From a virus: 64,000 bases of DNA. Every line of letters starts with the position of its first letter. Positions within the stretch are counted from its first letter, which is position 1. A program made the translations under genes and the position numbers. This document shows positions 11,488 through 27,320 of this stretch, piece after piece. The stretch is taken from the IMG/VR virus record IMGVR_UViG_3300012202_000039, positions 1 through 64,000 of that record; one strand, given 5' to 3'. The notes beneath the pieces were generated by a model. The model had not been told where the DNA came from and did no database searches. It was given only the letters and a program-made list of their open reading frames with translations.

Positions 11488-11718
11488 ATGTTAAATCTTA
11501 TTAAACGAAGTTGATAATAACGGAGTATACGTACGCGTAAGATTTAGTCTTAAATCGTGTAAATTATTATATGATTGGATATTGTATCCATATACAAAAC
11601 GCCTATTTAGCAGAAGCATTACATTCTACGATTATATATTCTAATAAACCCTTTAGAAATAGTTTATGAAAAACTAGAGGCGATACGAACTGACTTTGAT
11701 GGGACTAAAGGATCTTAA
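11488..11718 (+). pseudogene. Decayed or frame-broken small gene
   Basis: No single frame covers this 231-base stretch, but three frames in turn look coding. From ATG 11488 the sequence reads MLNLIKRS then stops. Another frame gives NEVDNNGVYVRVRFSLKSC and continues to TAA 11642. A third (from about 11571) reads IHIQNAYLAEALHSTIIYS. A last piece ends IVYEKLEAIRTDFDGTKGS at TAA 11716-11718. The pieces fit one small protein of about 75 residues broken by two or three indels. A sequencing error cluster would look the same. Confidence 0.45.
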
Positions 11719-11737
11719 TATAACAAAGGAAACAATC

Positions 11738-12715
11738 ATGACGGAAATGGATATTGTTCAAGTAGCAGTTCACAGTCAACCCACGGGTGATAATGGTACG
11801 GGTATTCGTATCACGACGAAAGATGGTAGTTGGGTTATTACTGCCGCTCATATCTTCGCTCAGGCTAATGCCACTACTGATATTCAAGTAGTGCCAATGA
11901 ATCCTAACTTTCCTCAGAGTGATGGTGTAACCGCACCGCCTATTACACCTATTTTATGGCGATTAGATACTAATCAAGATTTAGCTCTAATTACGTTAAC
12001 TCAAAATTCTGTTACGTTAAGTCCAGCTTTACAAGTGGATTTTACCGGAGGCCAGGTAGAAACTGGAGGTTTCCCTGGTACTAGTGGCACTACACCTACT
12101 TATCAAACTGGTGGCGCTACTCCAGTTAATAATACACTACAGTTTGATGCTAATGGTATTGTTATAGTTCAAGGTGAAAGCGGTTCACCCATTGCCATTC
12201 CTAATGGCGGCCCAGTCGTAGGTATAGTAACGCATACTACTTTTGGTACATTACTAAGTGATGCAAATGTAGCCGAAATTCTTAGATGGATTCAACTTGA
12301 TAATGGCGGGCCAAAAAATCCCATTTATCATCTAGTTGGTCCACAAGGATTTAATTTCTATACCCAATATATGACTGAGGTTATGGCTTTAGTTAATAGC
12401 AATAGTGGTTGGCAATTAAAAGGTATTGCTTTTAGTTCTGGTGGTACTATTCCCGTATTTCGTCTAGTTAATACAATCAACGGTTTTCATTTTTGGACTG
12501 CAAGTGCTGCTGAACAAGCAGCGGTATTAAATACTCCAGGATGGCAGTCTGAAGGTATTGGTTGGAATGCCTCTTCTTCAGGTATCGCCGTAAACCGGTT
12601 GTCTAGTAAACTAAATGGCGATCATTCCTATGTAGCTGATCCAGTAGAATTAGCTAACTTACTAGCTACTGGAAACTATAATAATGAAGGTATCTCATTC
12701 TATTCTCCTTTATAA
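11738..12715 (+). CDS. Trypsin-like serine protease with DUF5648-like C-terminal repeats
   Basis: The start is ATG 11738 after AAAGGAAACAATC; upstream in-frame starts lack a ribosome binding site. Of the 325 residues, 1-190 form a chymotrypsin-fold protease: TAAHIF gives His38, NQDLALI gives Asp81 and GESGSP gives the nucleophile Ser148. Residues about 197-325 hold three copies of the DUF5648-type repeat, with NFYTQYMTEV, HFWTASAAEQ and HSYVADPVEL at the same point in each. No signal peptide is visible. This pairing is common in secreted bacterial proteins but unusual for a phage. It is followed directly by an ADP-ribosyltransferase. The target is unknown; host attack, superinfection control or virion processing are all possible. 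Confidence 0.87.
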   Translation: MTEMDIVQVAVHSQPTGDNGTGIRITTKDGSWVITAAHIFAQANATTDIQVVPMNPNFPQSDGVTAPPITPILWRLDTNQDLALITLTQNSVTLSPALQVDFTGGQVETGGFPGTSGTTPTYQTGGATPVNNTLQFDANGIVIVQGESGSPIAIPNGGPVVGIVTHTTFGTLLSDANVAEILRWIQLDNGGPKNPIYHLVGPQGFNFYTQYMTEVMALVNSNSGWQLKGIAFSSGGTIPVFRLVNTINGFHFWTASAAEQAAVLNTPGWQSEGIGWNASSSGIAVNRLSSKLNGDHSYVADPVELANLLATGNYNNEGISFYSPL

Positions 12716-23192: not shown

Positions 23193-23957
23193 ATGAATAA
23201 CCGTCCTTTTCATATCTATTCTGATTGTCTCGGCTCACTAAAACATGTAGAAGCCTTTGATTTACTAGATGAAAAACGTTCGGATAAGCTGGAGTTATTT
23301 AAGATTCAAGCTGCCGCTACGGATATGACTAAAGATATTAAAGAAACTATTGTAACTGCACCTAAGATTCTCCCCTTCGCTGCGGAGAAATACAATATTT
23401 CACCTAATATTAAAGATTATATTCTCTGTTGCGTAGTAGTTTTACCTTCAGATCTACCCAATAAAAATGGTATTGCTTTTTCTCATGCTGAGCTTAGTTC
23501 GTTCGTTGTGGATGCTGGATCACTATGTTATGATACGTTTAGATATCGTCCGATTCACCTCGAACATGCCAATAAGGACCCTAGCATAGCTAAAGGCATA
23601 ATTTTAAGCTCTAGTTACAAAAGAATGACAGGATTTAAAGGTAATTTGTGGAAAGTTATCTGTCTCTGTGCGGTTGACCGTAATCGCGATAAAGTTTTAG
23701 CCGATCGTGTTCTTAATGAAAAAGATACCGGTTTTTCCTTAGGTAGTCTATGTGCCGATTACCGTTGTTCTATTACTGGTAACCTTTTTAGTTCAGGACA
23801 AGCTGAGAATTATACTAAGTTAGGTAAACCTTCTTTCCAAGTTGTGGGGAATAATTTAGCTTTCTTAAATGCCATAGATTCCTTAATGTTTGAAGTTAGT
23901 GTAGTAGCTTCTGAGGCTTATTCTTCTGCTCGAACACCATATAAGATGACCTTCTAG
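23193..23957 (+). CDS. Prohead protease
   Basis: This 254-residue protein has the pattern of the T4 gp21-type prohead proteases of large myoviruses (herpesvirus-assemblin-like fold). RPIHLEHANKDP gives a likely catalytic His125. GFSLGSLCADY, with Ser182 or Ser185, comes before the Cys-containing CSITGN region. The usual spacing of about 55-60 residues between His and Ser is kept. It would cleave scaffold, core and capsid proteins during head maturation. Starts directly after the preceding stop, behind AAGGATACC. Confidence 0.82.
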   Translation: MNNRPFHIYSDCLGSLKHVEAFDLLDEKRSDKLELFKIQAAATDMTKDIKETIVTAPKILPFAAEKYNISPNIKDYILCCVVVLPSDLPNKNGIAFSHAELSSFVVDAGSLCYDTFRYRPIHLEHANKDPSIAKGIILSSSYKRMTGFKGNLWKVICLCAVDRNRDKVLADRVLNEKDTGFSLGSLCADYRCSITGNLFSSGQAENYTKLGKPSFQVVGNNLAFLNAIDSLMFEVSVVASEAYSSARTPYKMTF

Positions 23958-24073: not shown

Positions 24074-24823
24074 ATGCAACTAACTAAAGAGGTAATCTTA
24101 GCTAGGATAGATATTTCTTACCACGATAAGGCTGAAGCTATATATAAAATAATTAAACAAGAAGTGCTTAAGGGAAAGTTAATAAAACAAAGTAACACAG
24201 CTTTGAGTAAACATCTAGATTCTACAACTATTTATTTATTAAATTCTGAACGATTTAATGAACTATATAAGAATACGACTATATCTTTCTCTACCTATAA
24301 AACTAGTTCATATTTTAACGAAAATAAGCACGCCTCTGGTTTTACGGATCAGAAAGGTAGTATAAAGCTGTTATATACATTTAGAATTTATACTTCCAAA
24401 TTTAAAAATGATCTCCATTTCTTAGTTCCACGGTTGAATAAGCAAGAAATTATATCTTTCTTTACTTATGATTTGTATAAAGATATATTTATTCATGAGT
24501 TAACGCACTACCTTCAGATACATAAACGTTTATATTTTGAATCTCCCTTTAAGAATGCTGATAATGATTACTTTAAACAAAGAATAGAACGAGAAGCATA
24601 CTTGAATAGTTTTATTGGAGATTTAAAGAATATCATTATAAAAAATCCAGAAAAATATCTACAGTCATTAAACGATTTTAAAAATTTAATAAAATATGAA
24701 TTAAGAAATGGCGGTAATGCTAAAGATATATTAGATAACCTATCCAATACTACGAGAGAGCAATATTATATAGATGTATACGAATATTTCAGGAAGAAAT
24801 ATAAGCAAGGACTAAATACATGA
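24074..24823 (+). CDS. HELTH zincin-like metallopeptidase, copy 2
   Basis: This 249-residue paralogue of the gene at 20865 has HELTH at His141, Glu142, His145 and IEREAY about 27 residues downstream. The 5' 60 bases differ from copy 1 at only a few sites, much closer than the rest, which suggests recent duplication or gene conversion of the start region. It ends YEYFRKKY like copy 1. Its stop overlaps the next start (ATGA). A 116-base non-coding gap precedes it. Confidence 0.8.
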   Translation: MQLTKEVILARIDISYHDKAEAIYKIIKQEVLKGKLIKQSNTALSKHLDSTTIYLLNSERFNELYKNTTISFSTYKTSSYFNENKHASGFTDQKGSIKLLYTFRIYTSKFKNDLHFLVPRLNKQEIISFFTYDLYKDIFIHELTHYLQIHKRLYFESPFKNADNDYFKQRIEREAYLNSFIGDLKNIIIKNPEKYLQSLNDFKNLIKYELRNGGNAKDILDNLSNTTREQYYIDVYEYFRKKYKQGLNT

Positions 24824-24993: not shown

Positions 24994-25063
24994 GCCCTGT
25001 AAATAGAACACAGAATACCACTAATGGTACTCTAGTTTTTAAATAAATTGAAGGTAAATAGTT

Positions 25064-25873
25064 ATGTCAGTTAATATTGTTCAAAATAAGTTTCTTGAAT
25101 ATATCGTCAGCGAATGTCACGATCGTGGTAATTTAATCGAGATGAATATTCATCTCGTAAATAATGTACGTTTAGTTGGACATATTATTGGTTACGATGA
25201 CGATTCCATCATTCTTAATGGTCGTGGTAAAACGCAGATTGTCTTCAAGAAGGCTATTTTGACTATTTGTCCTGGCGACAAGGGTGACGTAAACATGCTT
25301 AAGGCATGTTTACCTGATACGCTTAGTGAAGCTGCGCTTAATAGGTTAGTAGGTAATACTAGTACATATAGGCACTACACTTCTTCAAATTTAGATAAAA
25401 CTAGCCACCAACCTTATTACGGTGAGCCCCAGACAGATTTAAATCCAGTAAAAGAACCTATTGATATAATCAAACAAGTTGAAGGTAAGGTCGGCGAGGG
25501 TAGTTGTAGTGGGATCGGCGGTGAGGTTAATAACCAGCTAATTCCTAGTTATGATGCTATCCTGAACTACCATAAGAATAAAGGTAATTCTGTTTCAGAA
25601 GAAGATAAGGTCAGTGATAATGCCGAGGAATCTCGGGCTCCTACTGAGAGAGAAGAATTTAATAAGTATCTAAAAGAGAAGTATTCTAGTTCAGATGATA
25701 AGGGACGTAAAGAACTTTTAGAACAATTAAAGCTAAAAAATAACATTGGCGCATGTTTTAGTGATCCTGATGATGATATGTATTATCCTAGTAATATGAG
25801 TAATCTTCTTTCAGAAGAAGAGAAGATTACTCAAGAAATGCACGATAATGGTACTGACAGTGTTGCAGTTTAA
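25064..25873 (+). CDS. Hfq-like Sm-domain protein with long acidic C-terminal tail
   Basis: In this 269-residue protein, residues about 8-71 match bacterial Hfq strand by strand. KFLEYIVSECHDRG corresponds to the Hfq N-terminal helix, MNIHLVNNVRLVGHIIGYDDD to Sm1 (Hfq SIYLVNGIKLQGQIESFDQ), and TQIVFKKAILTICP to Sm2 (Hfq SQMVYKHAISTVVP). The Hfq Tyr-Lys-His uridine-binding triad becomes Phe61-Lys62-Lys63. Residues 73-269 are acidic and low in hydrophobics, probably disordered, far longer than the tail of bacterial Hfq. A ring-forming RNA-binding role is inferred. Two perfect hairpins lie in its own reading frame. It directly precedes the FtsZ-like gene, probably in one transcript. Confidence 0.8.
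   Translation: MSVNIVQNKFLEYIVSECHDRGNLIEMNIHLVNNVRLVGHIIGYDDDSIILNGRGKTQIVFKKAILTICPGDKGDVNMLKACLPDTLSEAALNRLVGNTSTYRHYTSSNLDKTSHQPYYGEPQTDLNPVKEPIDIIKQVEGKVGEGSCSGIGGEVNNQLIPSYDAILNYHKNKGNSVSEEDKVSDNAEESRAPTEREEFNKYLKEKYSSSDDKGRKELLEQLKLKNNIGACFSDPDDDMYYPSNMSNLLSEEEKITQEMHDNGTDSVAV
25289..25313 (+). repeat. Intragenic hairpin, 10-bp stem, 5-base loop
   Basis: GTAAACATGC at 25289-25298, loop TTAAG, and the exact complement at 25304-25313. It lies just after the Sm domain coding region of the Hfq-like gene. Confidence 0.85.
25798..25832 (+). repeat. Intragenic hairpin, 12-bp stem, 11-base loop
   Basis: GAGTAATCTTCT at 25798-25809 pairs exactly with 25821-25832, inside the acidic tail of the Hfq-like gene, 41 bases before its stop. 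It has no T run, so it is not a typical terminator. Confidence 0.85.
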
Positions 25874-25899: not shown

Positions 25900-27027
25900 A
25901 TGTCTACGATTGATTTCCCCGAGTTAGATATTGAAACCTATATCTCTGCTGACCCTATCGACGTAGTACCAGATAATAGCAAGGGTTCACAGAAGATTGC
26001 TATTCTAGGCTTAGGTCAAGCCGGCGGACGTATAGCAGAAGCTTTCCAAGACATTGGGTATAATAAAACTATTTATGTTAATACTACCGCACAAGATATT
26101 AATAATATTGTCTATAAATGTATTATTGGTATTACTGGTCGACCAGGCGGTGCTGGTAAGAATATGGCTATTGCTAGGGAAGCCTTTAATCAATGTGAAT
26201 CAACTATTACTAACTTGATGACTAAAGTGTACGGTAAAGTTGATCATATTCTAGTATGTGCTGCGTTAGGCGGAGGTACTGGCTGCGGTTCCGTGGTTTC
26301 TGCTTTAGAATTAGCTAAGAAGTATATGCGTTATATCGGACACGCCGATGCAGATAAGCGAGTTGGGGCGGTTATTACTATCCCAACTAATGGTGAACTT
26401 AACCCGCAAGTATTAAGTAATACTCTAGAAACCGCCGAAGAATTATCTAGGTTAGCAGATAATCAAGAAATCAGCCCTTTGATTATGGTGGATAACGAGA
26501 AGCTTAAGCTTCTCTATCAGACTAAAATTCCTATTGCGAAGTACCACACAACTATTAATAATCTTATTGTCCAGCTTATTGATAGTTTTAATACTATTTC
26601 TAACCAAGCTAGTGAATACATCACCTTCGACGCCACAGATTATGAAACCATCCTACAATGTGGCGGTCATATGATTTCCGGGGTAACTCGGGTAGATAAT
26701 TGGTTAGATAAAGATCTAGTAGTTAAAGCATTTCGAGATAATTTGATGGGTGCATTATTATCCTCTGATTTCGACCTAACTACGGCTACTCACGGCGGTG
26801 TAGTAGTAATGGTTGACGAGGAGTTGATTAATACTGATGTAAATCTTCAAGCTTTTATTGAAGCTGGATTTGATTCGATTAATCTCCTATGTCCTAAGGC
26901 CACTATTCATCGTGGTTTATACAAATGTAAGCCGACTAAGTTGAGTAAAGTTCGCGTATATACCACACTAGCTGGATTAAAGACACCTACTCGTAAATAT
27001 GATAAGTTATCTGCTTTATTGAACTAA
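25900..27027 (+). CDS. FtsZ/tubulin-like GTPase
   Basis: This 375-residue protein has the complete tubulin/FtsZ GTPase signature. Loop T1 is GLGQAGGR (residues 37-44), VNTTAQD is at 60-66, RPGGAGKN at 81-88, and the tubulin signature GGGTGCGS at 124-131. A DNEKLKLL stretch mirrors NDKLL of FtsZ. The T7 catalytic loop FDATDYETIL keeps both aspartates (Asp244 and Asp247, equal to Asp209 and Asp212 of E. coli FtsZ). It should polymerise and hydrolyse GTP. It looks closer to FtsZ than to PhuZ of phiKZ-type phages. No FtsZ C-terminal peptide is seen. Phage tubulins centre or move viral DNA and capsids; that role is inferred here. Confidence 0.88.
   Translation: MSTIDFPELDIETYISADPIDVVPDNSKGSQKIAILGLGQAGGRIAEAFQDIGYNKTIYVNTTAQDINNIVYKCIIGITGRPGGAGKNMAIAREAFNQCESTITNLMTKVYGKVDHILVCAALGGGTGCGSVVSALELAKKYMRYIGHADADKRVGAVITIPTNGELNPQVLSNTLETAEELSRLADNQEISPLIMVDNEKLKLLYQTKIPIAKYHTTINNLIVQLIDSFNTISNQASEYITFDATDYETILQCGGHMISGVTRVDNWLDKDLVVKAFRDNLMGALLSSDFDLTTATHGGVVVMVDEELINTDVNLQAFIEAGFDSINLLCPKATIHRGLYKCKPTKLSKVRVYTTLAGLKTPTRKYDKLSALLN
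26497..26514 (+). repeat. Perfect 18-base palindrome in the FtsZ-like gene
   Basis: GAGAAGCTTAAGCTTCTC is fully self-complementary, within the codons for the NDKLL-like segment. It is short and may be chance, but it joins a series of intragenic palindromes in this window. Confidence 0.8.
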
Positions 27028-27040
27028 AGGAGTAACACAA

Positions 27041-27253
27041 ATGAACGAACCTAAGAAAATTTTACATATTACAGTTGGTTCTGATGATTGGTATTCTACT
27101 AATGTAGAATTGGAGCAAGTTTATAATTTATTTAAAAATGGTATATTAAATGCGCATAATTGTGTTACACAAAGAGGTATTGAAGTTAAGGCTATAGATA
27201 ATATTGAAGATATAGATGAAATTGTCATCAGGCGTAAGATGAAATTACCTTAA
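27041..27253 (+). CDS. Hypothetical 70-residue protein
   Basis: A small beta-alpha protein (KILHITVGSDDWYST, EVKAIDNIEDIDEIVIR) preceded by AAAGGAGTAACAC. It is the last gene of the Hfq/FtsZ unit, before a strong terminator. No family is recognised. Confidence 0.82.
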   Translation: MNEPKKILHITVGSDDWYSTNVELEQVYNLFKNGILNAHNCVTQRGIEVKAIDNIEDIDEIVIRRKMKLP

Positions 27254-27285
27254 ATAATACACCAAAACTAGCCAATTCTATATGG

Positions 27286-27320
27286 AATAGCCCTAAGGTA
27301 TCACCTTAGGGCTATTTTTT
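27286..27320 (+). terminator. Rho-independent terminator
   Basis: A 14-bp perfect stem (AATAGCCCTAAGGT at 27286-27299, complement 27303-27316), with a 3-base loop, runs into TTTT. It ends the long unit that includes terminase, portal, Hfq-like and FtsZ-like genes. Confidence 0.93.

Follow-up and report, generated by a model that had tools for sequence, protein, structure and literature searches.

A virus contig encodes a diverged Hfq-type Sm domain with a long acidic tail among virion genes

It was as a host factor of phage Q-beta that Hfq first came to be described (PMC6635623). Hfq itself, the Hfq-like proteins of archaeal mobile elements (PMC3543421) and a protein of the mycobacteriophage Adephagia likened to Hfq at the level of structure (PMC11373665) make up what was already known, as far as the cited parts of these sources go. 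In E. coli Hfq, the cited part of one study assigns Gln8, Phe42, Lys56 and His57 to the proximal face, and R16-R19 together with an aromatic residue at position 39 to the rim (PMC5379935). The acidic tip of the E. coli Hfq tail is described as competing with RNA at the basic rim (PMC5606850, PMC6561178) and, in the cited passages of one of these reports, as not displacing RNA from the distal face (PMC5606850).

The DNA analyzed here, which we call the window, is the stretch of 64,000 nucleotides at positions 1 to 64,000 of an IMG/VR virus contig (IMGVR_UViG_3300012202_000039; 79,973 bases, classed linear). A preliminary description had placed a gene for an Hfq-like protein at 25064..25873 (+), and the list of open reading frames has a frame for 269 amino acids at these positions, to which Pfam assigns an Hfq domain. 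A Shine-Dalgarno-like GAAGG (25050..25054, +) lies nine bases 5′ of its ATG, and its codon usage is no outlier (rank 12 of 38, counted from the least typical).

The first 71 residues (25064..25276, +) are predicted to form an N-terminal helix and a five-strand Sm (Hfq) domain. The Pfam family PF17209 (Hfq) covers residues 21-72 (E 3.1e-11; 43.1 bits, cut-off 27), with a score of 46.1 bits in a second profile search over a set of 55 records, and Hfq accounts for 34 of the 36 matches listed by phmmer against PDB sequences at E up to 1, headed by Aquifex Hfq (E 1.9e-5), the remaining two being alginate lyases at E 0.12. A single-chain AlphaFold2 model based on a 35-row alignment places a helix at residues 3-20 and five strands within 26-70, with block-mean pLDDT of 87-97 over residues 11-70. 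With this model, all 50 PDB chains listed by Foldseek were Hfq (best E 4.3e-6), and a second structure aligner returned Hfq chains at Z about 10 (best Z 10.6, rmsd 1.7 over 71 residues). The Hfq-like Sm domain proposed in the preliminary description, which had suggested precisely such a structure prediction and profile search against Hfq/Sm folds, is thus borne out by profile, sequence and predicted-structure searches alike, and we regard the assignment of the N-terminal 71 residues to the Hfq family as near certain. The protein is nevertheless diverged: its identity to 34 aligned Hfqs is 28-44%, and it scores below the NCBIfam equivalog cut-offs for Hfq (TIGR02383, 37.2 vs 61.7; NF001602, 36.1 vs 95), so that a function identical to that of Hfq cannot be assumed. 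The Hfq of another virus contig, L066, is likewise below these cut-offs.

RNA-contact positions were read from an alignment (A5) of the window protein, seven virus-contig rows and 27 of 80 kept bacterial loci, and substituted residues are named by E. coli Hfq numbering as read from A5. The motif by which the bacterial rows had been picked requires K56 and T61 and restricts position 57 to H/K/Q and position 60 to S/L/T, so the agreement of these rows at the motif positions is partly by construction. Further residue roles of E. coli Hfq, including those on the distal face, we take to hold for the corresponding columns. In the proximal pocket of the phage protein, Q8 and K56 are kept, and Q41 and F42 are replaced by Asp and H57 by Lys; the bacterial rows have His at 57 in 27 of 27 and Phe or Tyr at 42 in 26 of 27. 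As the preliminary description had noticed, Phe-Lys-Lys (F61-K62-K63) stands where Hfq has Tyr-Lys-His, and the [YF]-K-H triad and F42 that mark the proximal uridine pocket are accordingly represented by F-K-K and Asp. On the rim, R17, a Lys in 25 of the 27 bacterial rows, is Gly here, and R19, a position variable in the bacterial rows, is Leu; R16 may persist as R21, where A5 is gapped. The distal face keeps N28, L32, G34 and T61 and shows conservative changes at I30 (Val) and K31 (Arg). Also on this face, Y25 is His (as in 2 of 27 bacterial rows), G29, a Gly in all 27, is Asn, and Q33 is Val. S60, Ser in 27 of 27 bacterial rows, is Leu. Window residues 21-70 carry a net charge of +2, which is also the median for the same columns in the 27 bacterial rows (range 0 to +5), so that, taken as a whole, the core is no more acidic than usual. 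Among the virus-contig rows of A5, L066 and L072 also lack the aromatic residue at 42 (Arg and Asn, respectively) and an Arg at R16, and the other five have Phe or Tyr at 42, one of them (L075) without Arg at 16.

Because the distal-face residues are mostly kept, while the proximal aromatic and histidine and part of the rim are lost, we favor distal-face binding of mRNA over annealing. Our leading reading, to which we give a probability of about 0.42 on the strength of sequence comparison and modeling, is that a ring of the phage Hfq would use its distal face to bind A-rich mRNA, the tail serving as a tether or regulator, and would not anneal sRNAs to mRNAs. As expected from the family, the domain would most likely form a six-membered ring, and its distal face would most likely bind A-rich stretches of phage and host mRNA, which would thereby be protected or silenced during virion assembly; annealing of sRNAs to these mRNAs would be no part of its use. 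The G29N and Q33V changes may weaken binding at the A site.

The remainder of the protein (residues 76-269; 25289..25870, +) is an acidic, mostly disordered tail by charge calculation and AlphaFold2. Its acidity (pI 4.69, net charge -14) and its length of 194 residues agree with the acidic tail of some 195 residues noted beforehand; the low complexity attributed to it does not hold, its entropy being 4.03 bits against a mean of 3.93 for comparison windows of the same length. These were 175 windows of 194 amino acids from the long-enough genes among 45 others, of which 4% were equally acidic. Pfam placed no family on the tail above its cut-off. Nearly all of residues 98-189 have pLDDT below 50 in the AlphaFold2 model, which draws several short helices in the tail, among them 195-207 and 212-226 (together residues 195-226; 25646..25741, +), with block-mean pLDDT of 71-77 for residues 191-220 and 58 for 221-230; these two predicted helices are a possible partner-binding element. 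The size range of 70-110 residues that had been given for bacterial Hfq has known exceptions, since Moraxella catarrhalis Hfq reaches up to 210 amino acids in the cited part of one report (PMC5663733), and the 269 amino acids of the phage protein go beyond those exceptions as well. With part of the conserved basic rim missing from the phage protein, its tail would be less likely to displace rim-bound RNA as that of E. coli Hfq does, and a role as regulator or tether would be more likely than autoinhibition at the rim.

Upstream of the hfq-like gene, on the same strand, a PHROG search identified terminase, portal and head maturation protease genes, and downstream, again on the same strand, a tail sheath gene and a gene for a phage endolysin-family protein (phrog_3513). 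Since virion genes flank the hfq-like gene, host contamination of the window was rejected. The protease (23193..23957, +; phrog_18299, E 1.6e-52) is the nearest 5′ gene found to be common to related phages. Of 172 matching phage records, 40 were listed, and in these the window terminase is 29-34% identical to the terminases of large phages, among them NCTB, PaBG and the Erwinia SNUABM phages, so that by sequence its relatives are jumbo phages; in viral_contigs, the best relatives by E-value are 37% identical and partial matches reach 39%. Other genes of the contig include an open reading frame at 24074-24823 with a HELTH motif (HExxH, zinc-peptidase-like by eye) and no Pfam match, and a predicted trypsin-like protease fused to DUF5648 (11696-12715), two genes 5′ of the terminase. 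Further along the record, at 77549-78223 (L156:17549-18223), is a gene for a protein with an NYN domain, an RNase-like fold; the adjoining gene encodes an ATPase that matches the family of the DNA polymerase III delta subunit.

The tubulin gene that begins 26 bases 3′ of the hfq-like gene (25900..27027, +) encodes a TubZ/FtsZ-like protein of 375 amino acids (PF00091, 41.2 bits, cut-off 33), whose predicted fold (pTM 0.88) has Bacillus cereus TubZ 4ei7 as its best PDB match (E 8.7e-24). It is followed by an open reading frame for 70 amino acids (27041..27253, +), searched against Pfam and without an assigned role, and a strong terminator-like hairpin of 16 pairs with a T tail (27284..27318, +) closes the run of hfq-like gene, tubulin and short frame. 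This arrangement, with the hfq-like gene lying between the prohead protease and the tail genes and immediately 5′ of the TubZ-like gene, raises the alternative that an Sm ring without RNA binding joins partners in late assembly, such as a TubZ-like filament or head proteins. The changes at several RNA-contact positions and the two predicted helices near the tail end would also suit such a scaffold. We nonetheless judge it unlikely, although it is the best placed of the alternatives, because the distal-face residues are mostly kept, the tail and the neighboring tubulin share no meaningful sequence similarity, and the pairing of the two genes is not conserved: of 80 viral loci that carry this tubulin family, the best 80 of 128 and many of them fragments, none had PF17209 above its cut-off.

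Those loci (L159-L238) are the best 80 kept from 128 confirmed viral_contigs loci of the tubulin family, and they are 40-44% identical in the best segment. A profile built from A5 likewise found no match in the 1,922 open reading frames of the tubulin loci. In L159, L162 and L190, inspection by eye places the tubulin beside genes resembling those for terminase, portal or protease, and the L190 copy had no match among the phage records at E 0.001. Conservation of the tubulin together with this terminase type was not seen: of 37 records, PF00091 occurs in 2, namely phage G and the window itself. For a TubR-like gene 5′ of the phage G tubulin, the matches were weak only. Used as single queries against viral_contigs, the tubulin and the terminase found no relatives, whereas alignment-based queries did.

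Relatives of the phage Hfq are few. For the 269-residue protein, a search of 50,697 phage records gave no relative at E up to 1, PHROG gave no family at a threshold of E 0.001, and viral_contigs gave one matching stretch but no confirmed relative; records very close to that of the window may be absent from the collections searched, so near relatives may exist. B. subtilis Hfq as query matched 10 of the 50,697 phage records, and E. coli Hfq matched six of the same ten: two titled Salmonella enterica, two of Acinetobacter phage MD-2021a (48.7 kb, hfq annotated), MT835489, one Staphylococcus record (1.6 kb) and four short Listeria records with partial matches. Three scans of viral_contigs with Hfq alignments gave 2, 10 and 2 confirmed loci from 36, 33 and 50 stretches, on 11 different contigs altogether; in the ten-locus scan, seven loci lie by eye outside the standard host hfq locus and two (L070, L073) are host loci, L069 being left out. 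These counts are lower bounds, since the scans depend on matching motifs and fragmentary records are numerous. MT835489, the one of the ten phage records whose gene context was inspected, and the contigs L003 (the same as L070) and L073 were set aside as host contamination because their neighbors look bacterial by eye, with hfq beside a miaA-like gene. The virus-contig Hfqs recovered are L066/G043, L004/L075, L067, L068, L071, L072, L074 and G136. PF17209 was over its cut-off in 3 of 55 records, the window, G001, which an alignment scan had already hit, and G043 (PaBG being in the set twice), and in neither of two mycobacteriophage genomes, Phabba and Tonenili; a match in PaBG (18.1 bits) runs on the strand opposite to the annotated genes and was taken as chance.

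Several of the virus-contig genes have settings of their own. L066:7998-8210 (G043), on a phage contig of 191 kb whose terminase is related, encodes an Hfq of 70 amino acids in which F42 is Arg and H57 is Gln. In G136 (215,275 bases; L239:5944-6909), adjacent genes for 146 and 144 amino acids each carry two tandem Hfq domains, two of the four being over the PF17209 cut-off; by eye, the pair lies about 3 kb 3′ of an SmpB-like gene. G136 has no match to the window terminase or to phrog_2, a family that also missed the terminase-bearing G043. On the low-GC virus contigs L068 (6702-8225) and L071 (6288-8264), a small hfq gene lies by eye 3′ of an integrase-like open reading frame, directly after it in L068 and with one short frame between in L071, placed as if carried at a prophage end.

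The recurrence of Hfqs on virus contigs, several with the canonical Y-K-H motif, and the conserved Hfq core of the phage protein would also fit a decoy that mixes with host Hfq or displaces it and so blocks sRNA regulation in the host. The preliminary description had proposed, relatedly, that the phage ring competes for sRNAs with the Hfq of the host; Asp in place of F42 and of Q41, Lys in place of H57 and the partly altered rim weaken that idea. Management of phage mRNA, the other role suggested there, may still hold by way of the distal face. Against the decoy, moreover, the gene has virion genes around it, for which late expression would be expected, and not early takeover genes, and the identity to aligned Hfqs is low, as given above. 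We therefore consider this alternative distinctly improbable. We give still less weight to the possibility that the gene is a moron or a decaying gene captured from a bacterium, without important function. Such a passenger would account for the position of the gene within the 10.7 kb that separate protease and ATPase genes in the window, when their homologues in L014 are neighbors only 69 bases apart, and for the long branch of the phage Hfq in the Hfq tree; the intact frame of 269 codons, the Shine-Dalgarno-like site and the phage-like codon usage argue against it. In the same tree, which has few columns and long branches, phage rows clustered no more than shuffled labels, giving no support to a single origin of phage Hfqs.

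The preliminary description had also pointed to two perfect hairpins in the gene as possible targets of its own product. A scan of the window for perfect stems of at least 10 bp with loops up to 30 confirms that the hairpins are real and finds three: an inverted repeat (25138..25157, +), a 10-bp hairpin (25289..25313, +) and a 13-bp hairpin (25797..25833, +). This is the highest number in any of the 77 genes, against a mean of 0.13 and a maximum of 2 in 500 synonymous shuffles, and the RNA of the gene folds better than 20 of 20 dinucleotide shuffles (z -2.5). Across the whole window (1-64000), however, there are 31 perfect stems vs 3, 3 and 4 in three shuffles, and the 77 genes contain 22 (mean 5.6, maximum 10 in 20 synonymous shuffles). 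Relative to the other genes (3 in 810 bases against 19 in 59,730), the excess has a P of about 0.002, which becomes about 0.18 once 77 genes are allowed for, so that the three hairpins are unremarkable given the window-wide rate. Many other genes of the phage contain hairpins of this kind, and the idea that those in the hfq-like gene are special targets of its own product therefore finds no support. L038, a terminase relative, is as dense in hairpins as the window, and the density is high as well in phage G and in L156, a stretch that shares 4 kb with the window.

That the Hfq ring ties A-rich late phage mRNA to the TubZ-like filament, with its acidic tails docking on tubulin, strikes us as very improbable; if true, such a tether would be a virus-made system for positioning mRNA inside a bacterium. 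Under the reading that we prefer, distal-face binding of A-rich mRNA by a gene that is probably expressed late, a diverged Hfq borne by a phage would mean that some phages bring an RNA-managing ring of their own. The protein would also be a natural variant that may separate distal-face functions from those of the proximal face and rim, and it opens the question of whether post-transcriptional control in large phages relies on Sm proteins that they encode themselves.

With the Hfqs of E. coli, Bacillus, Aquifex and Caulobacter, the phage protein has in common the helix and five-strand Sm domain, the Sm1 and Sm2 motifs, the Q8 and K56 positions and most distal-face residues; it differs from them in Asp at F42, Lys at H57 and a changed rim, and adds six residues at the end of the helix and the 194-residue acidic tail. 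The other virus-contig Hfqs have the same domain, but are 61-92 amino acids long without a long tail or carry tandem domains, and G043 and G136, the two of these records searched, gave no tubulin match, unlike the window. Mycobacteriophages Phabba and Tonenili have proteins named Hfq-like, that of Phabba being the first viral-library match of the window model (E 1.9e-4), and in the cited part of the report on Adephagia, the Hfq-like call for gp39 rests on predicted-structure matches (PMC11373665). In the open-licence PMC literature, exclusive of preprints, we found no report of a phage Hfq recognized at the level of sequence, long-tailed or otherwise, and the combination of such an Hfq with a long acidic tail appears to be new to that extent. 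The long Hfqs of the Moraxellaceae (168-174 amino acids in Acinetobacter) share the core and a long C-terminal extension, which in Acinetobacter is described as glycine-rich and repetitive, whereas the phage tail is acidic, not of low complexity, and longer (PMC5663733). The Hfq-like proteins of archaeal plasmids, like the phage protein, place an Hfq-like domain together with an extra part on a mobile element, and Pyrobaculum spherical virus, another archaeal element, also encodes an Hfq-like protein; in the cited account of the plasmid proteins, the extra part is mostly an N-terminal zinc finger, whereas in the phage protein it is an acidic C-terminal tail (PMC3543421).
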